A stretch of 64,000 nucleotides of DNA, taken from positions 4,593,501 to 4,657,500 of the forward strand of contig JAURUC010000001.1 in assembly GCA_030803735.1 (NCBI GenBank). The letters are read 5' to 3'. Below, piece after piece: positions 12,046-30,144 of this stretch. The stretch is from Actinopolyspora lacussalsi (lineage in GTDB: Bacteria > Actinomycetota > Actinomycetes > Mycobacteriales > Pseudonocardiaceae). Within the stretch, counting starts at the first letter, position 1, and the number at the start of each line of letters is the position of its first letter. A program made the position numbers and the translations under genes. The notes below the pieces were generated by a model, which did no database searches, had not been told where the DNA came from, and saw nothing but the letters and a program-made list of their open reading frames with translations.

Positions 12046-12118
12046 CTCGGGAGCGCTGCGGCGCACGACCGTCCGGTGAGCTTCTTTCCCGAGCGAGGGA
12101 TTCTGCCGGGACGCCGAG

Positions 12119-14456: not shown

Positions 14457-14663
14457 GTGCGGCAGCCGGAAACCCCGGAGGCGGCCGCGAGGGTGTCCGC
14501 GGTAACGGGAGCGAAGCCCGTTCTCCCGTGGAGCCCACCGGACGAGCGATGGGGGACTGATCCGCTCCGTTACCTGTCTCGCCCGTGTTCGCGGGTCGAG
14601 CGCGTGCGGGGTGAGTACCCCGTGATCGGACAGTTGTACGAATCGACTTTCAACGGATTGTGA
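14457..14663 (+). CDS. Possible small leader protein, 68 residues
   Basis: An open frame from GTG 14457 to the stop at 14661-14663, seven bases before the cyclase ATG. About three quarters of its codons end in G or C, similar to the genes that follow, and the TGAGGCG sequence before the start could be a ribosome site, though it is very close. The product (MRQPETPEAAARVS..., ending YESTFNGL) is unlike anything I know. It may be a real small gene or leader peptide coupled to the cyclase, whose own ribosome site is weak, or chance. Confidence 0.3.
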   Translation: MRQPETPEAAARVSAVTGAKPVLPWSPPDERWGTDPLRYLSRPCSRVERVRGEYPVIGQLYESTFNGL

Positions 14664-14670
14664 GCTCTCG

Positions 14671-15900
14671 ATGTCCATTCCCACTGTCAATCCAACACCG
14701 ACGAGCATCACCGCCGCGTTCGACCTTCCCAAGCCCCCGGGGGTCAGCTGGCGCGTCCGGTCCCAGCAGGTGGTGGATTACGAAGTGAGCATGACCCGTG
14801 GACTGCTGTCCACATCGAACTCCACGTTCGCCCATGCCTGCGGTGCCGATGGAAAGCGCAGGACTCGCTGTCTGGTGGTGGTGGACGATGCCGTGGAGCA
14901 GCTCTACGGCGAACGGTTACGTGCCTACTTCTCGGCTTGGCGGATAGCGCACAATTGGAGAGTCGTCCCCGGCGACGAGAACACGAAGCAACTCGACACG
15001 GCTCTCGGGCTCGTGGACGACATGAGTTCGATGGGCATACTCCGCCGTGCCGAGAAGATCGTGGCGATCGGCGGCGGAGTGGTGCTCGACGTGGTCGGTA
15101 TGACCGCGAGCCTGTACCGCCGAGGTATTCCCTACATTCGGGTTCCCACCACTCTGATCGGCCAGGTCGACGCGGGAATCGGCGTCAAGACCGGCATAAA
15201 TCACGGGCAGCACAAGAATCGACTCGGAACGTACTGTGCGCCGGAAACAGCTCTCATCGACCCCGAGTTCCTGCGCACCGTGGATCGTAGGCACATCAAC
15301 AACGGGCTGGCCGAGATCATCAAGATGGCTTTGATCAAGGACTCCCAGCTGTTCGATCTGCTCGAAGCCACCGTCGCGTCGATCGATCCGGAAACGCTCG
15401 CCGACTGCGGTCCGGCCGGTGGTGAGATCCTGTCCCGTTCGATCGCGGGAATGTTGGACGAACTCGAGCCGAACCTGTGGGAGAAGGTACTCGAAAGGGC
15501 CGTCGACTACGGCCACACTTTCAGTCCCTCGCTCGAACTCCGTGCCGACCCTCCGCTGCTGCACGGGGAAGCGGTGGCCGTGGACATGGCCATCTGCGTC
15601 GCTTTGGCCCGCAACCGCGGCCTGCTGTCGGAGCAGGACGCCGACCGGGCACTCACGCTCATGAACGCGGCGGGATTGCCGCTCACTCATCCCGTATTCA
15701 CCGCGGAGTTGTTGGAACGTGCGCTGGAGGACGCCGTCAAACACAGGGATGGCTACCAGCGCATGCCGCTGACGGCAGGTATCGGTTCAGCGGTGTTCGT
15801 GAACGACATCACTGCCGACGAGCTGCGAGCGGCGTTGTCGTTCGTGGCCCATCGCGATCATCGAGCGGCTGACTCGCATGTGCTGGAGAGCGCGCGATGA
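14671..15900 (+). CDS. Sedoheptulose-7-phosphate cyclase (2-epi-5-epi-valiolone synthase type)
   Basis: A 409-residue member of the dehydroquinate-synthase superfamily. NAD site: VAIGGGVVLDVVGMTAS (residues about 131-147); then RVPTTLIGQVDAGIGVKTGIN, NGLAEIIKMALI, VDYGHTFSPSLE (His282) and LLHGEAVAVD (His298) supply the metal and substrate residues. Dehydroquinate synthase has GHTFGHAIE; GHTFSP...LE and the length above 400 are the mark of C7-cyclitol cyclases that turn sedoheptulose 7-phosphate into 2-epi-5-epi-valiolone or a stereoisomer (AcbC, ValA, CetA). Which isomer is made cannot be decided by eye. Its 3' end overlaps the kinase gene by four bases (ATGA). It is the committing step of the cluster. 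Confidence 0.88.
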   Translation: MSIPTVNPTPTSITAAFDLPKPPGVSWRVRSQQVVDYEVSMTRGLLSTSNSTFAHACGADGKRRTRCLVVVDDAVEQLYGERLRAYFSAWRIAHNWRVVPGDENTKQLDTALGLVDDMSSMGILRRAEKIVAIGGGVVLDVVGMTASLYRRGIPYIRVPTTLIGQVDAGIGVKTGINHGQHKNRLGTYCAPETALIDPEFLRTVDRRHINNGLAEIIKMALIKDSQLFDLLEATVASIDPETLADCGPAGGEILSRSIAGMLDELEPNLWEKVLERAVDYGHTFSPSLELRADPPLLHGEAVAVDMAICVALARNRGLLSEQDADRALTLMNAAGLPLTHPVFTAELLERALEDAVKHRDGYQRMPLTAGIGSAVFVNDITADELRAALSFVAHRDHRAADSHVLESAR

Positions 15901-16988
15901 GGGTGCCGGAGACGTTCCAGGACGAACATACGGGCGCCGCGAGTGCCGCGCGTGAGGCCGTGGTGTTCGACATCGGTGGTACTCACTTCCGGTGTGCCCG
16001 TTGGTCTCCCGAATCGGGAGTGCGTCGGATGTGGTCCAAGCCTTCGCCGAGCGTTCTCGTTCACCCGGACGCGGGCGCCGACGAACTTCGAACGCGGCTG
16101 ATCGACGAGATATGCGCCGGGGTGGGCCAGGAAAAGGGCACCACAGCCGGTATCTCGTTGGGAGCGGCGCTGGATCAGCGCAGTGGTGTGGTCTATGCTT
16201 CCGCTCCGCTCTGGGGTGACAGCGTGACTCGGTTCGACCTGCTGGCCGGGTTGCGAGAGCGAAGGCCGGACGTCGATTGGCACCTGGTCAACGACGTGAC
16301 AGCGGCACTGCTCGGACTGGGGGAGACGCCGCGGTTCGACGGGTTTCGTCGGCTCCTCCTCGTTACGGTGAGCAGTGGTATCGCGTGCAGGTTGGTGGAT
16401 CGTCGACTGCGAACCATCCCGGTCGACGTCTGCGGTCTCCAGGGGGAGATCGGTCATATCCCCTCCGGCACCACTCTCGCGGGAAACCGGGTGGAGCTGA
16501 ACTGTGACTGCGGGAGCCCGGACCATCTGGCCGCCTTCGCCTCGGGGCCCGGCATCCGCCGGCTGGCCGAACGACTCCGCGAGCTGGAACCGCGACGCTG
16601 TGCCGTCTCACCGCTGTTCGACGAGGACATCGAGTTCGAAAGTACGTTCCGCCGACTCCTGGACGACGATGATCCGCTCGCTCGGGAGATCCTCGACGCG
16701 GCCACGTCGCCGTTGGCGGATGTACTGCGAACTGCCTGGTGCCTGGACCCCTCCATAGATCGGATCGCGCTCACCGGGGGAGTCGTGGACGGTCTCGGCG
16801 AGCACTATCACCGCGCGCTGGCTGAGCGGTTGACCAGGGACGGTGTCTACCTGACGAGTCGATTCCACCCGGAATGGCTAGCCGAGCGCCTCGTGCGCTG
16901 CGACAGTTCCGAGGCCGATGGCCTGGTGGGAGCCGGTGTCGCCGCGGTCGGATCCGGACGTTCGGCCAGGATCGGGGTGGAATCGTGA
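15897..16988 (+). CDS. ROK-family kinase, probable C7-cyclitol kinase
   Basis: A 363-residue ROK/glucokinase-fold protein. Residues about 22-30 give the phosphate loop VFDIGGTHFR; LVNDVTAALLG holds the catalytic Asp; GEIGHIPSG and NCDCGSPDHLAAFASG correspond to the ROK zinc site; LTGGVVDGLG is the second ATP segment. In a cluster with a cyclitol cyclase the obvious counterparts are AcbM and ValC, which phosphorylate O-7 of the cyclitol. The zinc motif is altered: the usual CxCGxxGCxE reads CxCGxxDHxA here. Start ATG 15897 overlaps the cyclase stop; the end overlaps the next start (GTGA). Confidence 0.82.
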   Translation: MRVPETFQDEHTGAASAAREAVVFDIGGTHFRCARWSPESGVRRMWSKPSPSVLVHPDAGADELRTRLIDEICAGVGQEKGTTAGISLGAALDQRSGVVYASAPLWGDSVTRFDLLAGLRERRPDVDWHLVNDVTAALLGLGETPRFDGFRRLLLVTVSSGIACRLVDRRLRTIPVDVCGLQGEIGHIPSGTTLAGNRVELNCDCGSPDHLAAFASGPGIRRLAERLRELEPRRCAVSPLFDEDIEFESTFRRLLDDDDPLAREILDAATSPLADVLRTAWCLDPSIDRIALTGGVVDGLGEHYHRALAERLTRDGVYLTSRFHPEWLAERLVRCDSSEADGLVGAGVAAVGSGRSARIGVES

Positions 16989-18121
16989 CGGGAAACGCAC
17001 AACCCCGCAACAACGCACTCGTCCGAGCGGGAGCTCGCGTCACGGTACGGCAACGTCCGACCCCGGTCCCGGCCGCGGGCGAGTTGGTGGTGGCCACCGA
17101 GGTCGCGGGACTCTGCGGCACCGATATCCAGATACTGCGCGGTTCGCGGAAGGAATCGGCCTCCGTGCTGGGGCACGAAGGGATAGCGACGGTGGTCTCG
17201 GTCGGAGAGGGGATCCGGGACTCGTTCTCGCCGGGGGATGCTGTCGTGATCAACCCCACCCATCCGAACGATCCGGGTTTCCTCCTCGGACACAACGTGG
17301 ACGGGTTGTTGCAGCGACGGACCCTCGTGCCCGCCACCGCGATACGAGCGGGCTTGGTCCTCGGACTGGATCGGCGCCCCGAAGCCGAGCTCGCCGCGCT
17401 GGTGGAGCCACTGGCGGTGGTCAACTACGCGCTACGGGCGCTGAGCCGGTTTCGGCCGTCGACACTGCTGGTGGTCGGGGACGGAACCATCGGGCAGCTG
17501 GCCGTTCGCTCAGCCGCAAGATGGGCGACGACCGTGAAGCGGACCGTGTTGGTGCACCACGGTGAATCGGGCAGGCAGTGGACACTGCGCTCCGGACTTC
17601 CACCCGATGACTCTCTCGTGGACGGCGAGGATATGACGGGGATGCTGCGCGAGGGGCCGGTCGGAGTCCTACTGGCCACCCCGAGGGAGAGCACGGGGCC
17701 TTGCCTGGAACGAGTGCTGCGTTCCGTCGGAGACGGTTCGGTCATCGACGTCATCGGCGGAGTACCCCCCGGACTTACCGTGAAAAGCCTTCCCGGAACC
17801 GATCTGGCGGGAATCCGGGCGGCGAACCTCGCCGGGCGACCCGATGTCCCCTTGACTGCCGAACGCACCGCGACAACGGGAAGTCGGATCAACTTGTTCG
17901 GCCATCGGGGGGTGTCCAACGCTCACCTCGGCACGGCTGTCTCCGAACTGGTCCGCAGTCCGGAGCGGTACCGGGAGCTGATCACCCATATCGGGGATCT
18001 CGAATACGCGTCACGAATCATGAGCGACCTCGCCCGCGGCAACGAGCGAATCGCCGATGGCCGAAGAGTGATCAAGCTGGCTGTCCGGGTGACACCGACC
18101 TGTCGAAAAGGAGACGACTGA
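16985..18121 (+). CDS. Zinc-type alcohol dehydrogenase (AcbL-like)
   Basis: A 378-residue medium-chain dehydrogenase. GLCGTDIQILRG and VLGHEGIATV provide the catalytic zinc Cys, His and Glu; ALVEPLAVVNYALRAL and VVGDGTIGQLAV form the coenzyme-binding fold. The four-cysteine structural zinc lobe is absent (NPTHPNDPGFLLGHN stands in its place), as in some cyclitol dehydrogenases. GTG 16985 is chosen because it overlaps the kinase stop as GTGA; an upstream in-frame start reads into the kinase gene. By order (after the kinase, before an SDR) it matches AcbL, the step that oxidises or reduces the 7-phosphorylated cyclitol. Confidence 0.78.
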   Translation: MTGNAQPRNNALVRAGARVTVRQRPTPVPAAGELVVATEVAGLCGTDIQILRGSRKESASVLGHEGIATVVSVGEGIRDSFSPGDAVVINPTHPNDPGFLLGHNVDGLLQRRTLVPATAIRAGLVLGLDRRPEAELAALVEPLAVVNYALRALSRFRPSTLLVVGDGTIGQLAVRSAARWATTVKRTVLVHHGESGRQWTLRSGLPPDDSLVDGEDMTGMLREGPVGVLLATPRESTGPCLERVLRSVGDGSVIDVIGGVPPGLTVKSLPGTDLAGIRAANLAGRPDVPLTAERTATTGSRINLFGHRGVSNAHLGTAVSELVRSPERYRELITHIGDLEYASRIMSDLARGNERIADGRRVIKLAVRVTPTCRKGDD

Positions 18122-18888
18122 TGACGCAGTCCGATGACGAATCCCCCGCGGGGAAGCGCGCCCTGGTTGTCGGCGGCTCCACCGGTATCGGCAGGGGAAT
18201 AGCCGACGCCTGGGCCGCCGAAGGAATGGATGTCGTCGTACTCAGCCGAAGTGAACCCTCCGACGCGTCGAGCTCGAACCTTCGCTGGGAACCGTTGGAT
18301 CTCCTCGATGCCGCGAAGACGAAGGAGCGGCTCGCCGACCTCGCGGTCGATCCGTTGTTGGCGGTGTGTTTCTCCGCCGTCGACTACGGGGCGAAGCGCG
18401 CTCCGCTCGGCGAGGTCACCGAAGCGGAATGGCGAACCCAGTTCGAGATAAACCTCCACGGGTTGTGGCTGACCCTGAGCGCGACGCTGCCCGCGTTGCG
18501 TGCCTCAGCTCCGGGGCTCTTCGTGGGGGTTTCCTCCGAAGTCGTCCACAACGCCGGACCGATGCGGTCCGGCTACGCCGCGACGAAGGCGGCAGGGTCG
18601 GCCCTGCTCGATTCGGTTCGGTTGGAGGAGAGCACGGACGAGATCCGGATCGTTCAGGTGCTGCCCGAGGGGATGGTGGACACCCCCGGCATACGCCGCA
18701 GGCGGTCCTCGGATTTCGACTTCAGCTCCTACATGACTCCCGACACCTTCGCGCCGCTCGCCGCTGAGCTCGTGCGAACCAGGGGAGCCGAATTCCAGGG
18801 AGACAGCCTCGTGGTCGGTTCCGGAGGCGACTGGCGTTCGCTGTCCTCGGGGACTCCCGTCTCGCAGAGTCGGAGAGCGGGATCGTGA
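18121..18888 (+). CDS. Short-chain dehydrogenase/reductase (AcbN-like)
   Basis: A 255-residue SDR. VVGGSTGIGRGIADAW is the nucleotide-binding loop; FSAVDYGA replaces the usual NNAG; INLHGLWLT, VGVSSEVVHN and the YAATK tetrad (Tyr and Lys four apart) give the catalytic residues; PEGMVDTPG follows the family PG motif. The ATG at 18121 shares its A with the preceding TGA stop, so the genes are coupled. In the acarbose operon AcbN, an SDR, follows AcbL; the same order here suggests action on the cyclitol ring, for example a dehydration or a ketone reduction. The exact reaction is inferred. Confidence 0.78.
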   Translation: MTQSDDESPAGKRALVVGGSTGIGRGIADAWAAEGMDVVVLSRSEPSDASSSNLRWEPLDLLDAAKTKERLADLAVDPLLAVCFSAVDYGAKRAPLGEVTEAEWRTQFEINLHGLWLTLSATLPALRASAPGLFVGVSSEVVHNAGPMRSGYAATKAAGSALLDSVRLEESTDEIRIVQVLPEGMVDTPGIRRRRSSDFDFSSYMTPDTFAPLAAELVRTRGAEFQGDSLVVGSGGDWRSLSSGTPVSQSRRAGS

Positions 18889-19718
18889 CCGGCGGGAATC
18901 CAGCGATCGGGCTGGCCGAGTGGCGTCTGCCGGTTCGTGGGGCCGAAGCGGTCGAGCTGGCCGCCTCCTACGGTGTCCGGGGGATCCAACTCGACTTCGG
19001 AGGTTCGGGGCGTGGGGTGCCGCTGGACACCCCCGGTAGGGCGCGCTCGCTTCGCCGGGAAGCCAACGGTTCGGGAGTCGAGTTGTTGGCGGTGGCGGGA
19101 AACCTGCTCAACGACATCGGCCTCACCGCGCCGGAGAGAAGCCGGGCGGCACGGAGTGCCCGCGGTGCGGTGATCGCGTTGCTCGACTCGGCCGTGTCTC
19201 TCGGCGTGCGACTGGTCCTTGTGCCGAGCTTTCGTGCCAGCACGATCGACGGTCCGGAAGAGTTGGAGCGGACGGTCAGCGTACTGCGGTGGGCGGCCGA
19301 GGAGGCTCGGACCCGGAACCTGGTGCTGGCCAACGAGAACGTGCTGTCGCCCACGACGGCGGTCGAACTGTTCGAGCGGGTCGGATCGGACTCGTTCAGG
19401 CTCGTGCTGGACACCGGGAACCCGGACGTGGAAGGGACGGACGTACCGGGACTCGTCCGAACCCTGGGGCCGCGTATCGCGGACCAGGTTCACCTGAAGG
19501 ACGGGCCGCTCGGACTCGGAGACGAGTGGCGTGGTTCCGGAGAAATCCGCGCCACTGAACTGTCGCGCGCATTCGCGCGAAGCGGGATATCGGTGAACTG
19601 GCTGATTCTCGAGAACGACTATCGCGTCGCCGATCCCCGTGTGATCGGCCTCGATGTAGCGGCCGCTCGTCGGTTCGCGGATCGGATTGTTCCAACCAAG
19701 ACCGGAGACAGCGGGTGA
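18885..19718 (+). CDS. TIM-barrel sugar-phosphate isomerase/epimerase (AcbO-like role)
   Basis: A 277-residue protein of the xylose-isomerase-like TIM-barrel group: GVRGIQLDFGG, a helix-strand series, LVLANENVLSP with a metal-ligand Glu, LVLDTGNPDVEG with Asp, QVHLKDGP with His, and a late ENDYR Glu. These acids and His fit the usual metal site. Such enzymes epimerise next to a ketone, as needed for the C-2 epimerisation of 2-epi-5-epi-valiolone 7-phosphate; in acarbose the gene after acbN is acbO with this job. The GTG start overlaps the SDR stop as GTGA, and the end overlaps the next gene as TGATG. Reaction inferred from family and order. Confidence 0.75.
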   Translation: MTGGNPAIGLAEWRLPVRGAEAVELAASYGVRGIQLDFGGSGRGVPLDTPGRARSLRREANGSGVELLAVAGNLLNDIGLTAPERSRAARSARGAVIALLDSAVSLGVRLVLVPSFRASTIDGPEELERTVSVLRWAAEEARTRNLVLANENVLSPTTAVELFERVGSDSFRLVLDTGNPDVEGTDVPGLVRTLGPRIADQVHLKDGPLGLGDEWRGSGEIRATELSRAFARSGISVNWLILENDYRVADPRVIGLDVAAARRFADRIVPTKTGDSG

Positions 19719-20371
19719 TGCACGTGTTTCTGAGTTTCTCCGCCCTGTTGTTCGACATGGACGGTACGTTGGTCGACTCAACGGTCGTGGTCGAACGCAC
19801 TTGGCGACGTTTCGCCCGTAGGCACGGTATCGACGCCTCGGAAGTGCTGGCCGACGCGCATGGGCGCCCCACCGGTGAGACCGTGCTGCGTTTCGCCCCC
19901 GACGGGGTGGACGTGGCGCGTGAGACCGCGACCCTCGTGGCCGAGGAAGTCGAGGACATCGAGGGTGTGGTTCAGGTGCCGGGGGCGGCGGAGTTCCTTC
20001 GCCGCGTTCCCGAATCCCGCATGGCGGTGGTTACTTCAGCCAGCCGCGAGCTGGCCGTACGGCGAATGGAGGCAGCGGGTGTACCACTCCCGAGCGTACT
20101 GGTGACCGCCGACGACATCTCCTCCGGAAAACCGGACCCCGAGGGCTACCTCAAGGCGGCGGAACTGCTGGGAGTGCCGCCGTCCTCCACGGTCGTGTTC
20201 GAGGACGCCGAATCCGGCCTGTTGGCAGCGGAGGCGGCCGGCGCGACTCCGGTGGTCGTGGGATCCCACGACCGCGCCTCCGCCGCGGGACGTATCGGAA
20301 TAAGGGATTTCCACGCGATAAGTGTCGCCGGATTCGACGAGGACGAGCGGGTCGGAATATCGTTCGAATGA
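19718..20371 (+). CDS. HAD-family phosphatase
   Basis: A 217-residue haloacid-dehalogenase-fold hydrolase of the beta-phosphoglucomutase-like group. Motif I is LLFDMDGTLVDS with both Asp residues; motif II VVTSAS; motif III SGKPDPEGYL; motif IV FEDAESGLLAAEAAG. It would remove the phosphate placed by the kinase once ring chemistry is complete, releasing a free cyclitol. The ATG at 19718 is preferred to the GTG three bases earlier because it forms the TGATG coupling seen elsewhere in this operon. A 102-base gap follows, so a new promoter may lie before the next gene. Confidence 0.82.
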   Translation: MHVFLSFSALLFDMDGTLVDSTVVVERTWRRFARRHGIDASEVLADAHGRPTGETVLRFAPDGVDVARETATLVAEEVEDIEGVVQVPGAAEFLRRVPESRMAVVTSASRELAVRRMEAAGVPLPSVLVTADDISSGKPDPEGYLKAAELLGVPPSSTVVFEDAESGLLAAEAAGATPVVVGSHDRASAAGRIGIRDFHAISVAGFDEDERVGISFE

Positions 20372-20473
20372 TTACTCGAATTCTGCCTGTTCGGTTCCGC
20401 TGAGTCGGACCGATCGTTGAGGTCGGTGACGATTCTTCGCATGGATTGACTCGTAAACCCTTTGTGGGGAGAC

Positions 20474-21523
20474 ATGACCCAAAAAACATCTTCCGGTCGG
20501 CTGCCGACTGCCACGGTTTCTCTCGTGTTGGAATCTCCGGGACGGCTCGCGCATCGCAGTTTGCCAGTGCACGAGCCCGCGCCGGGCCATTGTCTCGTCG
20601 CGGTGGAACACGTCGGTCTCTGCGGCACGGATCTGGGTTTCTACACGGGTACCAGTAGCTACCTGCACACTGGTCGCAAGAGCTATCCGTTCGTACTCGG
20701 CCACGAGTGGAGCGGAGAAGTCGTCCTCACCGGCGAGGGCGTTACCGGCCTGCGGGAAGGCGATCGGGTGTCCGGGCACAACTTCAGACGTTGTGGAAGC
20801 TGTGCCGTTTGTGCGGCGGGCGGGACCTTTCACTGCCCGTACCGCACCGAGATGGGGGTTGTCGGCGAGGAGCCGGGCGCCGCCTCGGAGTATCTCTCCG
20901 TGCCCGCCGAGACGGTCCACCGGATCCCGGACGGAGTCGGTAATCGTGCTGCTGCCCTGCTGGAGCCGTGCTCCGCATCGGTACACGCCCTGCGACGGCT
21001 CGCGGTTTCCGGAGCGGACAGCGTCGCGATCCTCGGAGCCGGAACACTCGGCTTGGCGGCCGCCCAGTTGGCCGTTTCGCGAGGCGCGAGTGTGACGGTT
21101 CTCGACCCCAACCCCCGGCTCGCCTCCCTGGCAGCCGAACTGGGGACAGACCGCGTCGCGGATCCCGACGAGGTGCGCAGCGGTAACTACGACGTGGTTG
21201 TCGAGGCATCCGGTGCGAGCGAGGCGGTGCGTCAAGCGATCCGGCTCTGCGGCCAGAACGCCCGGTTGGCGCAACTCGGTACGCCCCACGGGCCGGTCGA
21301 TGCCGTCCCCGTCGACGAAGCGGTGGGGAAGAACCTGGTGACGCACAATGTTCTGTCCGGCGCGGACCACTGGCCGCAATTACTGGAAGAGGTCGCTTCG
21401 GGAAATCTCCGGTTGGAACCGATGGTAGATCGAGAGTTCTCTTTCCACGAAGCGGACAAGGCATTCGAAAGGCTGAACGACAGCGGGCGGGACCGTCCGA
21501 AAGTTCTGCTGAATATCCGTTGA
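20474..21523 (+). CDS. Zinc-dependent alcohol dehydrogenase with structural zinc
   Basis: A 349-residue medium-chain dehydrogenase of the sorbitol/threonine dehydrogenase type. Catalytic zinc: GLCGTDLGFY and LGHEWSGEV. Structural zinc: four cysteines spaced as CGSCAVC plus HC within residues about 98-112, complete here unlike in the paralogue at 16985. Coenzyme fold: VAILGAGTLGLAAAQLA, with Asp (VLDPN) after the second strand, which favours NAD(H). The ATG at 20474 follows GGGGAG at proper distance; an upstream GTG lacks this. Probably oxidises a ring hydroxyl to the ketone of a keto-carbasugar; the substrate is an inference from the cluster. Confidence 0.82.
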   Translation: MTQKTSSGRLPTATVSLVLESPGRLAHRSLPVHEPAPGHCLVAVEHVGLCGTDLGFYTGTSSYLHTGRKSYPFVLGHEWSGEVVLTGEGVTGLREGDRVSGHNFRRCGSCAVCAAGGTFHCPYRTEMGVVGEEPGAASEYLSVPAETVHRIPDGVGNRAAALLEPCSASVHALRRLAVSGADSVAILGAGTLGLAAAQLAVSRGASVTVLDPNPRLASLAAELGTDRVADPDEVRSGNYDVVVEASGASEAVRQAIRLCGQNARLAQLGTPHGPVDAVPVDEAVGKNLVTHNVLSGADHWPQLLEEVASGNLRLEPMVDREFSFHEADKAFERLNDSGRDRPKVLLNIR

Positions 21524-21524
21524 A

Positions 21525-22451
21525 ATGCATATCACGAACGGGGCTGAAATGCGTGCGGTAAGAATCGAGGAAACCGGGGATCCGGAGGTTGTCGGTATCG
21601 AGCGGGTCGAGGACCCCGCTGTCGGTGCCGGTGACGTTCTGATCGAGGTGGTAGCCGCCGGGGTGAACCCGATAGATGTGGCGACGCGAAACGGCACGGT
21701 GCCGACCGACCTCCCGGCCGTGCTGGGGTGGGACGTCTCCGGGACGGTGCGCGATGCGGGTGAGGACGTGACGCGGTTCGGCGTGGGGGATCCGGTCATA
21801 GCCATGTCCGCGCAGGCAGCCACCGGACGGGGAACCCACGCCGAGTACGTGGCGCTGCCCGAGAGTCTCCTGGCGCCCGCACCACGTGAGCTCGATCAGG
21901 TGGAAGCGGCTGCCTTGCCGTTGGCGGGACTGACCGCTTCCCAGACCGTGACCGAGCTCGGTTCTCCCTCCAACGGCGCGGAGGAATTGCTGGTGGTGGG
22001 GGCACAGGGCGCGGTGGGCAGCCTCGTGGTTCAACTGGCCCGGCTGAACGGCTGGCGGATCTCGACCTTCGTGCGGCCGAGCGACGTGACCCGGAAGCCG
22101 CCCCGGGGTGTGCTGCGCCAGTACTCCGAGGAACATCCACCACCTCCCGCCGGTTTCTCCGCGGTCGTCGACACCGCGGGAGTCCCGGAACACCTCCGGT
22201 CGGTGTGCGACGAGGGGAGGTACCTCACGACGACACCGTTCGCGCAACCGGAACCGAGTCGAGGAGTGCGGATCGTGCTGATCGGTGTGGAACAGGACGG
22301 TGACGAACTCGCCCGACTCGGAACTCTCGTCGACGAGGGAAGTATCGAACCGGGTAAACCCTCGGCTGTCGTCGACTTCGAGCGAGCGGACTGGGCGCAT
22401 CGGACACTCGAAAACGGTGGAACCAGGGGAAAACTGATTCTGGTCCCCTGA
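21525..22451 (+). CDS. Zinc-free quinone-oxidoreductase-like reductase
   Basis: A 308-residue medium-chain reductase of the NADPH:quinone oxidoreductase group. It opens MRAVRIEETGDPEVVGIERV from the second ATG (21549), has GVNPIDVATRNG and LGWDVSGTV in place of the zinc ligands, and VVGAQGAVGSLVVQLA as coenzyme loop. Members reduce activated C=C or quinone bonds, so it could set the saturation state of an enone ring in the cluster product. The first ATG (21525) lies one base after the previous stop; the second has a better family fit. Codon use is slightly more AT-rich than in the backbone genes. Confidence 0.75.
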   Translation: MHITNGAEMRAVRIEETGDPEVVGIERVEDPAVGAGDVLIEVVAAGVNPIDVATRNGTVPTDLPAVLGWDVSGTVRDAGEDVTRFGVGDPVIAMSAQAATGRGTHAEYVALPESLLAPAPRELDQVEAAALPLAGLTASQTVTELGSPSNGAEELLVVGAQGAVGSLVVQLARLNGWRISTFVRPSDVTRKPPRGVLRQYSEEHPPPPAGFSAVVDTAGVPEHLRSVCDEGRYLTTTPFAQPEPSRGVRIVLIGVEQDGDELARLGTLVDEGSIEPGKPSAVVDFERADWAHRTLENGGTRGKLILVP

Positions 22452-22500
22452 GAAACCCCGGGCGGGGCTCCTGGAATTACTACACGAAAGAAGTGAAATT

Positions 22501-23757
22501 ATGACGGTTGTGGAAGAAAAAGCCAAGTCGGAATCGGATCGGCGCAGATCTCGATTACCCTCCTTGACCGGGATGCGCTTCCTCGCGGCGCTGGCGGTTT
22601 TCGGATTTCATTCCTCACTACAGATACCCGCCAATTCGGTGTTCGCGCACGACGGTGTGGCCGACACGTACCAGAAGATCATGTCCCAGGCCGGTGCGGC
22701 GGGCGTCACGTTCTTCTTCGTGTTGAGCGGCTTCGTGATGACCTGGTCGTACAAGCCGCACGACCGCAACGTGGACTTCTGGCGCCGCAGGCTGGTCAAG
22801 ATCTACCCGAATCACGTGGTGACGTGGGCTGTTGCGCTGCTGCTGTTCGCGGCCGTCTACACGCACCCCTACCAGGCCGTGGCCAACCTGTTTCTCGTGC
22901 AGGCGTGGATCCCGGAGTACGACACCTACCTCAGCGTCAATCCGCCGAGCTGGTCGTTGTCCACCGAAGTGGCCTTCTACCTGCTCTTTCCGCTGGTGTT
23001 CGCGGTAGCGCGCAAAATTCGCGAGCAGTATCTGTGGTGGTTTGTCTGGCTGACCGTGGCGCTGGTGGCGATCACCGCCCTGGTGGCCTACGTCCTGTTG
23101 CCGGAGCATCCGCGTCCACCGGACGGCCTCCCGATCTCCACTTACCAGTACTGGGTGAACTACGTCTTTCCACCGCTGCGGCTGTTCGATTTCTTCCTCG
23201 GCATACTGCTGGCCCGCATCGTGCTGGCCGGAAGGTGGGTGCGTCTCGGGATCGGTCCACTGGTGTTGGCGCTGCTCGGTTGCTATACCGTTTCCCTGTT
23301 CGTGCCTTACCTCTACGGCATGCGCGCGGTGTGCATCGTTCCGCTGGCACTGCTGATCCCCGCGATCGCGACGTCCGATGTTCGAGGTGAGCGTTCGTTC
23401 CTCCGTGGCCGCACCATGGTATGGCTCGGTGAGATCTCCTTCGCCTTCTACCTGGTGCACGCCATAGTGCTCGTCACGGGACGCGAGCTGCTGGGAGACA
23501 GTTATTTCGGGACTCCGTTGGCAACCGGAGTTCTCCTGCTTTATCTGGTGCTGAGTATTCTGCTCGCCTGGGCGCTGTACGAGTTCGTGGAAAAGCCCAC
23601 GACGAAACACTGGTCGAAACCGAAGAAGAAGGGTTCCGGAAAGAGGAACTCAGCTGCCACGGAAAACTTGGGGGCTGGGGGTTCCCGGAACGACAGGGCA
23701 GTGGATTCCGCTGTCGGAGAAAACGAGAGCAGGAGCTCGGCGACCGCGGATCGGTGA
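22501..23757 (+). CDS. Membrane O-acyltransferase (acyltransferase 3), copy 1
   Basis: A 418-residue protein with about ten transmembrane helices of the OafA/acyltransferase-3 family, which includes MdmB-type enzymes that acylate antibiotic sugars. Signatures: LPSLTGMRFLAAL at the N-terminus, FGFHSS with the conserved His, FFFVLSGFVMTWSY, FWRRRLVKIYPNH with the essential Arg, NPPSWSLSTEVAFY, and WLGEISFAFYLVH near the end. A charged, cytoplasmic 50-residue tail follows the last helix. It would move an acyl group from a CoA donor onto a cyclitol hydroxyl. It has a close paralogue at 25075, and each is followed by an MFS gene. Confidence 0.85.
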   Translation: MTVVEEKAKSESDRRRSRLPSLTGMRFLAALAVFGFHSSLQIPANSVFAHDGVADTYQKIMSQAGAAGVTFFFVLSGFVMTWSYKPHDRNVDFWRRRLVKIYPNHVVTWAVALLLFAAVYTHPYQAVANLFLVQAWIPEYDTYLSVNPPSWSLSTEVAFYLLFPLVFAVARKIREQYLWWFVWLTVALVAITALVAYVLLPEHPRPPDGLPISTYQYWVNYVFPPLRLFDFFLGILLARIVLAGRWVRLGIGPLVLALLGCYTVSLFVPYLYGMRAVCIVPLALLIPAIATSDVRGERSFLRGRTMVWLGEISFAFYLVHAIVLVTGRELLGDSYFGTPLATGVLLLYLVLSILLAWALYEFVEKPTTKHWSKPKKKGSGKRNSAATENLGAGGSRNDRAVDSAVGENESRSSATADR

Positions 23758-23835
23758 CCGGGCGGAAATTCGGTTGTCGGCTGAATCGCCTCGGCTGTTC
23801 TCGTGGAACGTTACGAGATGCGACAAGGGGACCTC

Positions 23836-25035
23836 GTGTATCTGCGGATAGTCGGTCTGATCGTGGCCATCTTCGGGGTGGGTACGTCGGAACTAATGCC
23901 GAGCGGAATGCTCGAACAGTTGGCGGGAGGACTCGACATCAGTCTGGCGACCGCCGGACTGTCCGTGACCGTTTATGCCCTGACGATGGCTGTCGGTGGT
24001 CCGCTGGTATCGGCGGCCACCACGGCGATGACGCGGAAGAGGATCCTGCTGTTCCTACTCGGGATCTTCGTGCTCGGCAACGGCATCATCGCCGCGGCCC
24101 CCGGATACGCGGTGGTCCTGGTCGGCCGAGTGCTGACGGCTCTCACCCATGGAACCTTCATGGCCGTCAGCGTCGTCACCGCGGGCAGCATGGTTCCGGC
24201 TCACAAGTCCGGAAGCGCCGTGGCCGGGGTGCAGCTGGGCATCAATCTGGCAACCGTGCTGGGGGTTCCGTTCGGGACGCTGCTGGCACAACGGCTCAGT
24301 TGGCGTTCGAGTTTCGCGGCGGTGTGCGTCATAGCGGTGCTGGCCGCCGTGCTCATCATGATCACGGTACCGGACTCGGGCACGCCCGAGTCCTCGAGCG
24401 TGCGGTCCGAGGTCCGGGCATTCAGCAGGTGGAACGTCGTCACCACGGTGGTCGCGACCGTGCTGTGCTCAGCCGGGATGTTCACGATCATCACGTACTT
24501 GGCTCCGTTGTTGACCAGGGGAACGGGGTTTCCGGCCGAGGTGGTCCCCCTACTGTTGCTGGGTTACGGGGCCGGTTCCGTGATCGGCAACTCCGTCGGA
24601 GGCAAGCTGGCGGACAAGTCCCTGTCCGCGGCGACGGCGGTTCTGTCGGGGTCGCTGACACTGACCTGCCTCCTCTGCTGGCTGGGAACCTTCTCGCGAA
24701 GTGCCATGATTCCGGTGCTGCTGGTGTTCGCGCTGGTGACGTTCGCGCTGATTCCGTGCCTGCAGACGAGAGTGGTGAAAACTGCGGAGGAGGCTCCGAC
24801 CCTTTCGTTGACCGTGAACATGTCGGCATTCGGTCTGGGTGCCGCGATCGGTTCCTGGTACGGCGGAAAGATAATCGAGCTCGGTGTCGGTGTGCGGACC
24901 GTTCCGATCGGTGCCGCGGTTCTCGCGATCGCGGGAATGTCGGTGATCGTGATAACCGTACTTCTGGAGCGCAGGAAAACCGACGCCTCTCGTGCCGATT
25001 CGCGAAACAGGACGGCGGAAAAAGAAGTAATTTGA
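23836..25035 (+). CDS. MFS exporter, copy 1
   Basis: A 12-helix major facilitator of the drug:H+ antiporter (AraJ/YdhP-like) type, 399 residues. The N-terminal helix pair carries FGVGTSELMPSGM; loop 2-3 ends TRKRILL; VLVGRVLTALTHGTFMAV is the helix-4/5 antiporter region. I chose GTG 23836 because of the AAGGGGACC site just before it; frames open further upstream (ATG 23818) but without a good site. Likely role: export of, or resistance to, the cluster product. It shares the layout and many motifs with the MFS at 27284. Confidence 0.83.
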   Translation: MYLRIVGLIVAIFGVGTSELMPSGMLEQLAGGLDISLATAGLSVTVYALTMAVGGPLVSAATTAMTRKRILLFLLGIFVLGNGIIAAAPGYAVVLVGRVLTALTHGTFMAVSVVTAGSMVPAHKSGSAVAGVQLGINLATVLGVPFGTLLAQRLSWRSSFAAVCVIAVLAAVLIMITVPDSGTPESSSVRSEVRAFSRWNVVTTVVATVLCSAGMFTIITYLAPLLTRGTGFPAEVVPLLLLGYGAGSVIGNSVGGKLADKSLSAATAVLSGSLTLTCLLCWLGTFSRSAMIPVLLVFALVTFALIPCLQTRVVKTAEEAPTLSLTVNMSAFGLGAAIGSWYGGKIIELGVGVRTVPIGAAVLAIAGMSVIVITVLLERRKTDASRADSRNRTAEKEVI

Positions 25036-25074
25036 TTTGGTTCGAGTCGCAGGAAATATTGAAAAGGGAGCGAT

Positions 25075-26277
25075 ATGTCGTCCTCGGTAATTGGTGAGAG
25101 AGCCTACTCGGCTTATTCGAGGTTACCCTCGCTCACCGGGATGAGATTCATAGCGGCGGCTATGGTGTTTTTCTTCCATGCCTCGCTGACGGATCCGCCG
25201 CAGAACCCTTATGCGGACCCGTTCGCGTCCGATCTCTATCAGACGCTCTTCAGTAAAGCGGGTTGGATGGGAGTGTCCTTCTTCTTCGTGCTCAGTGGCT
25301 TCGTGCTGACGTGGTCAGCGCGTTCCACCGACACGATGGGAGGATTCTGGCGAAGGCGGCTGGTGAAGATCTTCCCGGCGCACGTGGTCACCTGGGCGCT
25401 GGCCATGATCCTGTTCGCCGCCGCTGCCTCCGATCCGCACCAGTGGTTGCCGAACCTCTTCCTGATCCACTCCTGGTTCCCGCAGCACGAGATCTTCATC
25501 AGCGTGAATCCGCCGAGCTGGTCGTTGTGCAGCGAGCTGCTCTTCTACATGTGCTTCCCGTTCATCATCAAGGGTGTCGTGCGGATCAAGCAGGAACGTC
25601 TCTGGTCGTACGCTGGACTGATGATCCTGGGGATGGTGGGTGTCCAGGTTTTCACCCAGTTCGTGCTTCCCGACACCCCGCAGACCCCCGAAGGGTTCCC
25701 GGTGTCGGTCTGGCAGTTCTGGTTCGGTTACAACTTCCCTCCCGTGCGACTTTTCGAATTCGTGCTGGGGATGCTGCTGGCGCGAATCGTGATGTCCGGA
25801 ATGTGGTTCCGCTCGCTCGGATTCGTTCACGCGACGGTACTGGCGGTTGCCGGATATGCGCTCGCCATGGTCGTGCCGTGGTTGTACGGGCTCAACGTGG
25901 CCACCATCGTTCCGATCGTCGTACTGGTGTGTACCGCCGCGACCGCGGACATCGAGGGGCGGCCGAGCGTGTTGCGCAGTCGCACCATGATTTGGCTCGG
26001 TGAGGTTTCCTTCGGTTTTTATCTCGCGCAGTACGTTGTGATATATTATCTTCGGCAGCAGATGGATGCCCGTCTGTTCAGCACTCCCTTGGGTACTCTC
26101 GTCCTATTGGGTCTCTTCTTCGTCACGCTGTTGGTCGGGTGGCTGGTGCACAAATTCGTGGAGAAGCCCGCCATGCGTCGTTGGGGACGTCCTCGTGGCG
26201 GCGGCGGGAGTTTTCTCGCCAAGCCCATGGTGGGACAGGAATCGACTTCCCCTGCCGGGGAGAAAGCACGGCTCTGA
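25075..26277 (+). CDS. Membrane O-acyltransferase (acyltransferase 3), copy 2
   Basis: A 400-residue paralogue of the protein at 22501. Shared motifs: SRLPSLTGMRFIAA, FFFHAS with the catalytic His, FFFVLSGFVLTWSA, FWRRRLVKIFPAHVVTWAL, NPPSWSLCSELLFY, RLFEFVLGMLLARIV, WLGEVSFGFYLAQ. It lacks the long tail of copy 1. The divergence of the two copies, especially in the external loops, suggests different acyl donors or different hydroxyl acceptors. The ATG at 25075 follows AAAGGGAGCG. The 39-base spacing from the MFS gene fits one operon. Confidence 0.85.
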   Translation: MSSSVIGERAYSAYSRLPSLTGMRFIAAAMVFFFHASLTDPPQNPYADPFASDLYQTLFSKAGWMGVSFFFVLSGFVLTWSARSTDTMGGFWRRRLVKIFPAHVVTWALAMILFAAAASDPHQWLPNLFLIHSWFPQHEIFISVNPPSWSLCSELLFYMCFPFIIKGVVRIKQERLWSYAGLMILGMVGVQVFTQFVLPDTPQTPEGFPVSVWQFWFGYNFPPVRLFEFVLGMLLARIVMSGMWFRSLGFVHATVLAVAGYALAMVVPWLYGLNVATIVPIVVLVCTAATADIEGRPSVLRSRTMIWLGEVSFGFYLAQYVVIYYLRQQMDARLFSTPLGTLVLLGLFFVTLLVGWLVHKFVEKPAMRRWGRPRGGGGSFLAKPMVGQESTSPAGEKARL

Positions 26278-26357
26278 CGTAGGTTTTACGCCTGCCAGTG
26301 TTTCGTGACACGTCTTTTGCGGACGATTGAACTCTGTTTCTCTAGGAGGTTTTGGAA

Positions 26358-27140
26358 ATGAACGTGCAGTACGTTGAAGCGGCTGGTAAGCGGGTGCCGG
26401 TGCGTATCGAGGGGGAAGGCCCCGGTCTGCTGTTGGTGCACGGCACCGGAGCGACGGGGGATGCCAACTTCGGACACCTGCTGGAAAGTTTCACCCCCGA
26501 TCACACCACGATCGTGCCGGACTACGCCGGAAGCGATGACGACACTGCCGATCCGGGGGAATTCGCTCTGGATCAGCTGGTGGAACAGGTTGTGGCCGCG
26601 GCCCGCGCGGCAGAACTCGACGAACCCGTGGACGTGGTGGGGTATTCGCTGGGCGCTGTTGTCACCGCGGCAGCGGCTGCCAAGTACCCGAACCTGTTCC
26701 GCCGAGTAGTTCTCGTCGCGGGATGGGTCACCATGGACCCGAGGCAGCGGCTGGTCTTCGACCTGTGGCGCAGGCTGGCCGACACCGATCCGCAAGCGTA
26801 CTCGCGGTTCGTGACCATGCTGCTTTTCACCAGGTCGTTCATGAACGGTCTCGGCGACGCGGGGCTGGAGGAAGCGGCTTCCGGTACCGGTTTCACTCCG
26901 GCGACACTGCGGCAGATCGACCTGAACAGCAGGATCGACATCAGTGATTCGGTGGGAGACGTGGTCGCTCCCACACTGGTCATCGGCTGTTCACACGATC
27001 AGCTCATCCCCGTCGAACACGCGAGGCAGCTGCACCAGGCCATCGGACAAAGTGACTACGTCGAGCTGGAGAGTGGGCATCTGGTCGTGGTGGAAAAATC
27101 CGACGAACTCGTCAAGCACATTTCCGAGTTCCTCAAGTGA
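26358..27140 (+). CDS. Alpha/beta hydrolase
   Basis: A 260-residue serine hydrolase. LLLVHGTGATGDANF is the oxyanion loop, VDVVGYSLGAVVTAAA holds the nucleophile Ser, IGCSHDQLIPVEHAR the acidic residue, and LESGHLVVVEKSDEL the His, so the triad is complete. ATG 26358 follows a perfect AGGAGG at 26345-26350. It is placed between an acyltransferase and an exporter. It could remove an acyl group, either from a protected intermediate or from imported product as self-defence; no known substrate can be read from the sequence. A strong hairpin follows at 27159. Confidence 0.8.
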   Translation: MNVQYVEAAGKRVPVRIEGEGPGLLLVHGTGATGDANFGHLLESFTPDHTTIVPDYAGSDDDTADPGEFALDQLVEQVVAAARAAELDEPVDVVGYSLGAVVTAAAAAKYPNLFRRVVLVAGWVTMDPRQRLVFDLWRRLADTDPQAYSRFVTMLLFTRSFMNGLGDAGLEEAASGTGFTPATLRQIDLNSRIDISDSVGDVVAPTLVIGCSHDQLIPVEHARQLHQAIGQSDYVELESGHLVVVEKSDELVKHISEFLK

Positions 27141-27158
27141 CGGACCGGCTCGGTGGAC

Positions 27159-27192
27159 GGGTGGGGCGGTGTCTCCGAACGCCGCCCCACCC
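27159..27192 (+). terminator. Hairpin after the hydrolase gene
   Basis: GGGTGGGGCGG (27159-27169) pairs perfectly with CCGCCCCACCC (27182-27192) across a 12-base loop, 18 bases after the stop at 27140. It may terminate the operon before the last exporter gene or thin its expression. Confidence 0.6.
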
Positions 27193-27283
27193 GATCGAAG
27201 CGGCAGTCCGGGCCGGCCCGCGGTCGGCCCCGCCTCCTTCGGACCTATCGTACGAACGACCTGGTGGGAGTTGAATCGCGGAG

Positions 27284-28507
27284 ATGTCTTTCGCCGTCCT
27301 CGCCCTGATGCTCTGTGTGTTCTGTTTGGGAACCGCGGAAGTAGCGCTCTCGGGCATCCTCCCCGAGGTGGCCGCTGACCTCTCGGTCTCGATTCCGTCG
27401 GCCGGGTTGCTCGTGACGGCCTACGCCGTGGGTGTGGCCGTCTTCGGCCCACTGGTCACGCTCGGTACCCTGAAGGTGTCCAGCAGAAAGCTCATGCTCG
27501 GACTGATGGGGGTTTTCCTGGTCGGCAACGCCCTCTCCGCGTTCGCCGCCAACTACGAACTACTCATCGGGGCGCGACTCCTAACGGCCCTCAGCCACGG
27601 GACGTTCGTCGCGATGGCCGGTTTCGTCGCCGCAGGGATGGCGCCGCCGGGCAAGGAGGCCTCCGCGATAGCCAACATATCGCTGGGGTTCAACCTGGCG
27701 AACGTGCTGGGCGTCCCGTTGACGACGATGATCGGGCAGGCGTTCGGCTGGCGAATGACCTTCGCCGCCATCACGCTGGCGGCGGTGCTGGCCACTGGTC
27801 TGGTCGCCTGGCAGGTTCCTCGGAAGGACGTGCGTGGCGGCTCCACCGAGTTGGCAGCGGGCGGCGTGAAAGCCGAGACACGGGTGTTGCTTCGTCCCGT
27901 CGTGCTCGGCACGGTCCTGGTGACGGTGCTCGCCCAGGGGTCGGTTTTCGCCGTGTCCACCTACATATCCCCCCTGCTTCGGTTCGTCGCGGATTACCCG
28001 GCGTCCTCGGTGAGTCTGCTGCTTCTGGTGTTCGGCGCCGGGTCGGTCTGCGGAAACTTTCTCGGCGGACGTGTCACCGACCGCAGTACCAGCGTGGGAG
28101 TTTTCGGCAGTCTCGGAGTGCTCACCGTCATGCTCGTGGTGTTCTGGGGTTTCCTGCCGGTGTCACCGGCCGTTCCCGTTGTGCTTTTCCTGTTCGGAGC
28201 GGCGGGATTCGCGATCATACCGGCGCTGCAGACTCGTATCCTGCGGTTGTCGGCAGCCGCTCCGATCCTCGCCCTCTCGGCCAACGTCTCGGCCTTCAAC
28301 CTCGGTAACGGGTTCGGCGCCTGGATGGGCGGAACCGTGATCGAGCTGGAGTGGGGTGTGCGAAACGTGCTTCTCGTGGCCGGAGCGATCACCCTGGTGG
28401 CGCTTTCGCTGGCCTGGATCATCGATCGGTTGAGCAGAACCTCGGGCTCGGCACCAGCGGCGCACCGAACCGCCGAGTCGGAGCTTTCCGTCGGCGAGGC
28501 CGGTTGA
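27284..28507 (+). CDS. MFS exporter, copy 2
   Basis: A 407-residue, 12-helix major facilitator of the same drug-antiporter type as copy 1. Parallel motifs: FCLGTAEVALSGILPEVA, VTAYAVGVAVFGPLVT, IGARLLTALSHGTFVAMAG, NLANVLGVPLTTMIGQ, and FNLGNGFGAWMGGTVIELEWG near the C-terminus. Start ATG 27284. The order acyltransferase-MFS, then acyltransferase-hydrolase-MFS, implies duplication of a two-gene module. A product may need two exporters if two differently acylated forms are made. Confidence 0.83.
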   Translation: MSFAVLALMLCVFCLGTAEVALSGILPEVAADLSVSIPSAGLLVTAYAVGVAVFGPLVTLGTLKVSSRKLMLGLMGVFLVGNALSAFAANYELLIGARLLTALSHGTFVAMAGFVAAGMAPPGKEASAIANISLGFNLANVLGVPLTTMIGQAFGWRMTFAAITLAAVLATGLVAWQVPRKDVRGGSTELAAGGVKAETRVLLRPVVLGTVLVTVLAQGSVFAVSTYISPLLRFVADYPASSVSLLLLVFGAGSVCGNFLGGRVTDRSTSVGVFGSLGVLTVMLVVFWGFLPVSPAVPVVLFLFGAAGFAIIPALQTRILRLSAAAPILALSANVSAFNLGNGFGAWMGGTVIELEWGVRNVLLVAGAITLVALSLAWIIDRLSRTSGSAPAAHRTAESELSVGEAG

Positions 28508-28533
28508 GAAGCCGCTCCCCGCTACGACCGTCG

Positions 28534-28549
28534 GACGGTCCGGACCGTC
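28534..28549. terminator. 16-base perfect palindrome at the cluster end
   Basis: GACGGTCCGGACCGTC lies 27 bases after the last exporter gene and before the convergent immunity-like gene ending at 28630. It could stop transcription from both sides. Confidence 0.45.
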
Positions 28550-28629
28550 GTCAACCCCTTGTCCGTTCCCGAGCGCCGCGGCCCGGCTACCTCGTGGGAA
28601 ATCGACGCCCGCGCCGGAAACCGCGCCGC

Positions 28630-29259
28630 TCACTCTCCCCGGAACCGCAGCGGGTTGTCGAGGTCGAGGAAGGTTCGGGCGAGCTTGTTGGTCTCGGTTC
28701 CGTTGCCGCGCACCGAGTGCAGGATGCCGTTGTAGACGAGGTCCCACAGCTCGCGGTTCCGCTGGAGATCGTTGAGCTGTGCGGAAAGCTCCCGTCCCGC
28801 TGCGTCGGTCAGCTGCAGTACTCGGGAAGCGCCTTCCGTGGTTACCTTCACCGAGGTGAGCTCGTACGTTCCGACGAATCCGTTCTTCCCGTAACGAAGC
28901 CAGTCGGCTCCCGCTGACATGCGCGTGTTGCGCCCTGTCAGCAACGTGATGAACGGCCACGGAACTATGAACAACCAGAGCCACCACGTCGTCATCCATC
29001 CGAACCCGCTGTCTCTGATGACGCCGAATACGAAGACGATGACCGATATCGCCAGTCCGATACCGAAGGATTGGCCACGGGCCGGGTAGAACCACTCGAG
29101 TACGGGGGACTCACCTTCCGGAGCTTGCGGGGCCTTGTTCTCCCCACCCGAACGTTTCTTCTCGGCTCGTTTCCACTCGGGCTCCAGCGGTGCGCGTGGT
29201 GGGCGTGGTTGCCCGGTTCGGGGGTCGGGTTTTGGTGGCAGTCCGGCTGTGTGGCTCAT
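28630..29259 (-). CDS. Two-TM candidate immunity protein, copy B
   Basis: A 209-residue protein. A Pro/Arg-rich N-terminus (PKPDPRTGQPRPPRAPLEP) leads to two membrane helices near residues 67-115 with WMTTWWLWLF between, then a soluble domain ending NGILHSVRGNG and LDNPLRFRGE. It equals copy A (29504) exactly in length; N- and C-termini are near identical while the middle differs at roughly four in ten residues. It follows the orphan effector C-terminus by 11 bases. A membrane protein next to a hydrophobic-tailed secreted protein suggests an immunity role; there is no family assignment I can vouch for. Confidence 0.7.
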   Translation of the reverse strand: MSHTAGLPPKPDPRTGQPRPPRAPLEPEWKRAEKKRSGGENKAPQAPEGESPVLEWFYPARGQSFGIGLAISVIVFVFGVIRDSGFGWMTTWWLWLFIVPWPFITLLTGRNTRMSAGADWLRYGKNGFVGTYELTSVKVTTEGASRVLQLTDAAGRELSAQLNDLQRNRELWDLVYNGILHSVRGNGTETNKLARTFLDLDNPLRFRGE

Positions 29260-29270
29260 TGGTGCTCGTT

Positions 29271-29478: not shown

Positions 29479-29503
29479 AACGGTATCGAGACGACCGCGC
29501 CGC

Positions 29504-30133: not shown

Positions 30134-30144
30134 TGGTGCTCGTT

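Follow-up and report, generated by a model that had tools for sequence, protein, structure and literature searches.

An acarbose-like cyclitol core with acylation and export genes in Actinopolyspora lacussalsi: a predicted route to nitrogen-free C7-cyclitol esters

What does an acarbose-like cyclitol pathway produce when the genes for nitrogen, nucleotide and pseudoglycosyl chemistry do not accompany it? This question is raised by a locus in the single-contig, 5.03-Mb genome of Actinopolyspora lacussalsi, where 13 genes, all on the plus strand, fill positions 14671–28507 of a stretch of 64,000 nucleotides (genome positions 4593501–4657500; hereafter the window, in whose coordinates all features are given). 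The gene cluster is real and more than a product of chance, as its cyclase matches ValA with an E value of 4e-117 and its gene order is seen again in other genera. The likely product of this cassette is an exported carbasugar of the valienol/valienone type that is free of nitrogen and carries acyl esters.

The first gene (14671–15900) encodes a cyclase that, judged by its sequence, looks like a 2-epi-5-epi-valiolone synthase (EEVS) of the ValA/AcbC type. Against Protein Data Bank (PDB) sequences it reaches 394 bits with entry 4p53, followed by 240 bits with 5tpr, which is labelled dehydroquinate synthase (DHQS) and which we take to be a desmethyl-4-deoxygadusol synthase (DDGS), and by 144 bits with the best other DHQS. 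Entry 4p53 is ValA, and fingerprint sites for these cyclases are described in the same source (PMC4426668). The protein scores 226.5 with the aroB model TIGR01357, whose cut-off is 305, and stays under the cut-off of all five NCBIfam models matched at E 1e-10, four of which are named DHQS. Its residues D279 and H358, presumably the positions that separate EEVS from DDGS, align with D and H in 4p53 and with A and T in 5tpr; D and H are found there in all 36 aligned rows (the window and 35 relatives), whereas in the DHQS of this genome they are N and T. On the 4p53 score, the missed aroB and NCBIfam cut-offs and these residues, the reading as a dehydroquinate synthase, which the preliminary description of this locus had named as fatal to its own proposal, was rejected. 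At E 1e-60 the cyclase is present in two of the nine Actinopolyspora genomes examined, and at E 1e-130 in four of 397 sampled genomes of the order: its own, a second genome listed under the same species (G202; 100% identical after rounding, with 909 bits versus 913 for self), G007 and G326. G007 also has the cassette, with a DNA identity of 97% over 17013–28624 and 94% over 6848–17012.

The genes behind the cyclase complete a set like the cyclitol half of the acarbose pathway (AcbC-M-O-L-N-J), with a ROK kinase, a TIM-barrel epimerase, an AcbL-like medium-chain dehydrogenase/reductase (MDR), a short-chain dehydrogenase/reductase (SDR) and a HAD phosphatase. Genes 1–6 (14671–20371) overlap their neighbours by 1–4 bases (cyclase/kinase, 4; kinase/MDR1, 4; MDR1/SDR, 1; SDR/epimerase, 4; epimerase/HAD, 1 or 4), and both the coordinates and the Pfam classes of genes 1–7 (DHQ_synthase fold, ROK kinase, ADH_N, SDR, AP_endonuc_2 TIM barrel, HAD and zinc alcohol dehydrogenase) agree with those given before, genes 1–5 having been recognized as an overlapping AcbC/M/L/N/O-like set. 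By position and family, the ROK kinase (15897–16988; ROK, 2.8e-10) would be an AcbM-like cyclitol 7-kinase; its relatives outside Actinopolyspora, 38–55% identical, also lie beside the cyclase. The TIM-barrel protein (18885–19718; AP_endonuc_2, 1.2e-21), whose position is conserved, is on the same grounds a putative AcbO-like epimerase. No match to either of these two was obtained in a PDB sequence search at E 1e-3. The SDR (18121–18888; adh_short, 1e-22) contains Y-x3-K in its translation, has relatives of 49–65% identity in the same position outside Actinopolyspora, and is predicted to act as an AcbN-like, reversible valienone-7-phosphate reductase.

For MDR1 (16985–18121), a predicted AcbL-like 5-epi-valiolone-7-phosphate dehydratase, the assignment draws on homology. 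It is a zinc MDR without the structural-zinc cysteines, with Cys44 in the motif GLCGTD and just two other cysteines (240 and 373), and its homology extends over the full length: 52% identity over 96% of the query to P0149, "cyclitol dehydrogenase [Actinoplanes sp. SE50]", besides 49% identity to PrlV of Nonomuraea spiralis. P0149 is probably AcbL, since AcbL, like SalM, was formerly called a cyclitol dehydrogenase (PMC10717218). The HAD protein (19718–20371; alternative start 19715), a predicted AcbJ-like phosphatase with matches to HAD families and a DMDGT motif, is 57% identical over 90% to P0357 of Actinoplanes utahensis, which has been fermented for acarbose (PMC3581085). In vitro, AcbL dehydrates its substrate to valienone 7-phosphate, AcbN interconverts valienone 7-phosphate and valienol 7-phosphate, and the HAD protein AcbJ dephosphorylates these (PMC7081202). 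Given the 52% identity of MDR1 to the SE50 protein, the core should thus yield valienone or valienol 7-phosphate.

The limits of the cassette were drawn by comparison with three (G003, G004 and G008) of the seven cluster-free Actinopolyspora congeners. Homology to these ends at 14003, the stop of a manC gene, and restarts at 28615–28621; because the alignment breaks at 14003 and at about 28615, the cassette spans approximately 14004–28614 (14.6 kb) and holds exactly these 13 genes. Its non-coding ends are the cyclase upstream region, presumed to contain the promoter (14004–14670), and a right end at 28508–28614; Rfam gave no match at gathering scores anywhere in the window, the former region included. 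The G+C content is 0.639 for 14004–28610 versus 0.685 across the remaining window. At the same site the congeners carry sequence differing from the window, about 0.5 kb in G004 (locus L046) and 1.8 kb in G003 (L047) and G008 (L050), and the site looks variable.

Genes 8–13 belong to the Pfam classes zinc-free alcohol dehydrogenase, Acyl_transf_3, MFS, Acyl_transf_3, alpha/beta hydrolase and MFS; together with the HAD protein and the zinc dehydrogenase of gene 7, this is the tail of tailoring and export genes that had been read from the letters alone. Gene 7, MDR2 (20474–21523), is a classical zinc polyol dehydrogenase with catalytic and structural zinc motifs and is proposed to oxidize the free cyclitol. 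In PDB and NCBIfam it is most like ketose reductase and threonine, sorbitol and scyllo-inosose dehydrogenases, the NCBIfam scores all being below cut-off. The adjoining quinone oxidoreductase-like gene (QOR; 21525–22451) encodes a quinone/enone-reductase-like MDR without zinc motifs, matching PIG3 and quinone oxidoreductase models below cut-off. Two predicted membrane O-acyltransferases, AT3-1 (22501–23757; Acyl_transf_3, 6.6e-33) and AT3-2 (25075–26277; 2.3e-28), are paralogues with 48% identity, and both have the motif R-x10-H, which presumably has a role in AT3 proteins. The alpha/beta hydrolase (26358–27140; Abhydrolase_1, 1.6e-21), with GYSLG, SHD and GH motifs, is a possible deacylase or acyl-transfer enzyme; NCBIfam gave no match at E 1e-30 for it or for either AT3 protein. 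The two MFS proteins, MFS1 (23803–25035; MFS_1, 1.2e-44) and MFS2 (27284–28507), are predicted exporters. Of the two, MFS2 accompanies the core more widely, its ten best matches (about 50–55%) lying in actinomycete and proteobacterial clusters.

That these tailoring genes belong to the pathway follows from two genomes taken as Saccharopolyspora, in both of which (two of two examined; loci L062 and L071) the cyclase, kinase, MDR1, SDR, epimerase, HAD, AT3, MDR2, hydrolase and MFS genes form one run on one strand, with 47–69% identity to the window proteins (hydrolase, 53% in both). These 10-gene clusters differ from the window in having no match to QOR, a single AT3 and a single MFS gene, and another gene order after HAD; QOR, one AT3 and one MFS accordingly look like additions made in Actinopolyspora, and among the clusters examined QOR is confined to the Actinopolyspora version. 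Streptomyces violascens (L010) and, next to a cyclase and kinase at which the contig ends, S. tricolor (L012) likewise have an AT3 and two MFS genes adjoining the core. Their AT3 and MFS proteins are divergent (57–59% identity of AT3-2 to the AT3 of L012 and L010, 54–55% for MFS1, whose type is accompanied by AT3 in both species), and in L010 a different second MDR follows the epimerase and HAD is missing. This conservation in Saccharopolyspora and the two Streptomyces bears out the earlier proposal that acyl transfer and export are parts of the cluster.

From gene class and homology we infer the following reactions, their order, the position of the esters and the ketone. The cyclase would convert sedoheptulose 7-phosphate to 2-epi-5-epi-valiolone, from which the kinase, epimerase, MDR1 and SDR, acting like AcbM, AcbO, AcbL and AcbN, would form the 7-phosphate, 5-epi-valiolone 7-phosphate, valienone 7-phosphate and valienol 7-phosphate in turn. 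The HAD phosphatase would then remove the 7-phosphate, MDR2 would oxidize one hydroxyl to a ketone, and AT3-1 and AT3-2 would place esters on one or two hydroxyls before export by MFS1 and MFS2. The alpha/beta hydrolase might serve in ester trimming or in protection of the producer, and saturated congeners may arise if QOR reduces some of the enone. Such a product would fall into the chemical space of the gabosines, COTC and the rancinamycins, nitrogen-free C7 cyclohexenones with esters. Among the matches listed, no gene cluster assigned to any of these compounds was found in the open-access literature, subscription journals lying mostly outside this search.

The core is tied to nitrogen-free carbasugars, by association only, through Streptomyces lincolnensis, of which rancinamycins are reportedly products. 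The S. lincolnensis protein P0005 finds a cyclase in six of 392 sampled Streptomyces genomes at E 1e-150, and the genome with the best match (G722) is taken as S. lincolnensis because its cyclase is 99% identical to P0005. Its cluster (L060/L061) has the order BBE oxidase, cyclase, kinase, MDR1, SDR, epimerase, HAD, beta-lactamase-fold and luciferase-like gene, and the spacing of its MDR1 and HAD genes is consistent with SLCG_5041 and SLCG_5038. These two genes have been placed in a C7-cyclitol cluster of S. lincolnensis, from which four carbasugars are reported (PMC10717218). The first six genes of the cassette are found there in the same order, with a cyclase identity of 72%; in place of MDR2, AT3 and hydrolase, however, stand the BBE oxidase, beta-lactamase-fold and luciferase-like genes.

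Several points weigh against the acylated valienol/valienone-type product. Neither AT3, MDR2 nor the hydrolase finds a match in the S. lincolnensis cluster, whose products therefore speak for the core alone. The putative roles of kinase, SDR and epimerase derive from protein family and gene position, and AT3, QOR and the hydrolase belong to large families whose sequences do not reveal their substrates. A search for MDR2 in 390 genomes of the family gave six matches at E 1e-85 (three Actinopolyspora, two Saccharopolyspora and G1009); the relative in G1009 lies beside sugar-catabolism genes without a cyclase, a locus not counted as a cluster, and MDR2-type proteins are thus not specific for cyclitols. 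Finally, the AcbN-like SDR would predict an alcohol, and a ketone would depend on re-oxidation by MDR2 or on HAD acting first. Of the free keto-carbasugar with one or two acyl esters that was originally proposed, the nitrogen-free, acylated carbasugar remains as the best reading; the count of one or two esters stays a prediction, and the ketone is not established, because AcbN reduces valienone 7-phosphate to valienol 7-phosphate (PMC7081202).

QOR could equally saturate the ring. If it reduced the enone, the product would be an acylated 5a-carba-hexose or keto-carba-hexose, a type of reduction also proposed for the formation of validone in validamycin. The gene stands directly after MDR2, and its protein is a zinc-free MDR with best matches to quinone- and enone-type reductases; its absence from both Saccharopolyspora clusters, however, indicates that it is not basic to the family, and we regard a saturated product as unlikely.

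A less probable explanation still is that the AT3, hydrolase and MFS proteins serve the adjoining cell-surface glycan locus or drug efflux, leaving an unacylated valienol or valienone as the cyclitol. AT3 enzymes often acylate surface glycans, the cassette adjoins a glycosyltransferase locus, and both MFS proteins have sub-threshold chloramphenicol-efflux matches. The stretch 6848–14003 of that locus is nevertheless kept in congeners without the cassette, and in Saccharopolyspora the AT3 and hydrolase genes accompany the core; the glycan locus was therefore rejected as owner of the AT3 genes.

In the acarbose pathway itself, AcbU, AcbR and AcbS carry the route on to GDP-valienol and to C-N coupling (PMC9200736). 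The cassette lacks genes of the AcbU, AcbR, AcbS, AcbI and AcbV types and instead adds MDR2, QOR, two AT3, the hydrolase and two MFS genes. In Pfam scans (E cut-offs 1e-3, 1e-10 and 1e-5), neither an AcbR/AcbU-type nucleotidyltransferase nor a second kinase was among the 13 cassette genes, and the 37 window proteins scanned, out of 54 called and with the 13 included, contained no aminotransferase, the rest of the genome not having been searched for one. These scans support an acarbose-like core free of nitrogen, nucleotide or pseudoglycosyl genes within the cassette. For the window as a whole the same claim fails, as a nucleotidyltransferase, ManC, is encoded at 12900–14003 on the left flank, where all six window proteins with glycosyltransferase domains also lie; its intended point stands because ManC and four of those six are located in the stretch 6848–14003, which is syntenic in congeners without the cluster. 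ManC was discarded as the missing cyclitol nucleotidyltransferase, given that it passes the mannose-1-phosphate guanylyltransferase cut-off (596 versus 440 bits) and is kept in seven of seven cluster-free congeners. Glycosyltransferase family 5 (GT5; AcbS type) had no match in the genome, the same search being positive in 12 of 14 control genomes. The one family 20 protein (GT20; G000:C1:4078267) lies far from the cassette and is trehalose-synthase/OtsA-like, a name left uncertain by 530 bits against the OtsA cut-off of 565; with 93–98% conservation in seven of seven cluster-free congeners, its reading as a VldE-like enzyme was rejected. A pseudo-oligosaccharide or aminocyclitol assembled with trans-acting genes elsewhere in the genome, as the acarbose core and the nearby sugar nucleotidyltransferase and glycosyltransferase genes might suggest, is thus very improbable, the candidates examined for these roles being unmatched (GT5) or shared with congeners that lack the cluster (GT20 and ManC).

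The gene combination had seemed unlike any described pathway. It is not a lone case, as the cassette appears as an elaborated version of a family in Actinomycetota and Pseudomonadota, and it is a variant of known chemistry with related blocks in other bacteria, not a new kind of system. A search of GTDB species genomes with the cyclase gave 31 loci, of which 19 have the core order cyclase, kinase, MDR1, SDR, epimerase (in L027 in pieces) and seven lack the SDR; of the remainder, L012 breaks off behind the kinase, L030 contains parts of cyclase and kinase followed by an MFS gene, and three from Thermoplasmata have nothing of the core but the cyclase. A HAD gene occurs in 14 of the 31. In the called genes of L002 and L005–L033, blastp at E 1e-5 gave no match to QOR or the hydrolase and at most weak ones (best, 52 bits) to MDR2; in the S. 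lincolnensis stretch, a partial QOR match of 32% is located some 11 kb past the HAD gene.

What follows the core differs between lineages. Group I has an MFS and another MDR gene without HAD (L006, L007, L009 and the proteobacterial L023, L024, L025, L027 and L028); in a Salinicola metagenome-assembled genome (MAG), Phyllobacterium, Agrobacterium vitis, Pantoea, Chimaeribacter and the three actinomycetes it forms a compact operon of cyclase, kinase, MDR1, SDR, epimerase, MFS and second MDR, with kinase, MDR1, SDR and the MFS2-type gene in pieces in L027. Group I* consists of five Streptomyces with a divergent MFS, S. violascens and S. tricolor adding AT3 and a second MFS. Group II (S. tibetensis, S. 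fumanus and S. cyaneochromogenes) carries BBE oxidase, HAD, beta-lactamase-fold and luciferase-like genes. Group III, seven Streptomyces, combines a kinase-MDR1 fusion with HAD, a beta-lactamase-fold gene, keto-acid dehydrogenase genes and mostly BBE and aldo/keto reductase genes. Group IV, two gammaproteobacterial MAGs, has HAD and AT3 (22–27% identity) after the core, a beta-lactamase-fold gene and MFS. In the fusion, ROK kinase and AcbL-like MDR are one open reading frame of 724–834 amino acids (L014, L016, L018, L019, L020, L021 and L029), and both the ROK and ADH_N domains were detected in the L016 protein (11188–13446 of that locus), which suggests that the two steps are directly coupled. 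E1-type genes occur in all seven fusion loci and an E2 gene in six of them, a possible acyl-CoA supply.

A quick cyclase tree (37 rows, SH-aLRT support only, the genome's own DHQS on a very long branch) recovers groups I*, II, III and IV each as a single clade, while group I, with five of its eight loci in the tree, requires two changes. L035, L037, L038 and L054 (branch length 10 in a first tree, probably from a wrong frame) and L036 (1.12) were removed, the length filter of >300 amino acids excluded L023, L027 and L028 (298, 210 and 277), and L001, L003, L004 and L030–L033 are also outside. The window cyclase falls into none of groups I–IV and its sister is uncertain: Glycomyces proteins in the quick tree (support 81), P0049 of Saccharopolyspora gregorii and part of group I in the flawed first tree (support 86).

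Tentatively, and with somewhat less confidence than in the product type, the cassette may represent the fullest version seen of a scattered, apparently unnamed family of nitrogen- and nucleotide-free C7-cyclitol clusters in Actinomycetota and Pseudomonadota, which would share a valienone/valienol-7-phosphate core, exchange tailoring genes between lineages (AT3, BBE oxidase, beta-lactamase-fold acyl enzyme, keto-acid dehydrogenase, second MDR) and supply the missing rancinamycin, gabosine and COTC genes as well as new esters. This wider family was not found described in the open-access literature searched. The cassette offers a delimited set of genes, open to testing, for nitrogen-free carbasugar esters. 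It also points to the acarbose core as a portable module, which different lineages would complete by acylation or other modifications in place of C-N coupling. Root growth in plants is inhibited by free C7 cyclitols, (+)-streptol for example (PMC8599487), so that new ones would be of interest as glycosidase or plant probes.

Some further observations concern the cyclases and the surroundings of the cassette. The relatives in the Thermoplasmata MAGs (L031, L032 and L033) are 32–36% identical to the window cyclase, in a mutually shared neighbourhood unlike the bacterial clusters. P0117 and P0120 (Actinophytocola, Amycolatopsis) and P0113 are EEVS-like cyclases of 504–509 amino acids with an added cupin domain (PF07883). 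Adjoining the cassette, the minus-strand region 28611–32058 contains the duplicated stretches 28621–29320 and 29492–30194, both of which match one segment of L046. Beside these duplications lies a protein with WXG100/type VII secretion signal features (30145–31392), and the region has the appearance of a type VII secretion effector locus in which partner genes are repeated.

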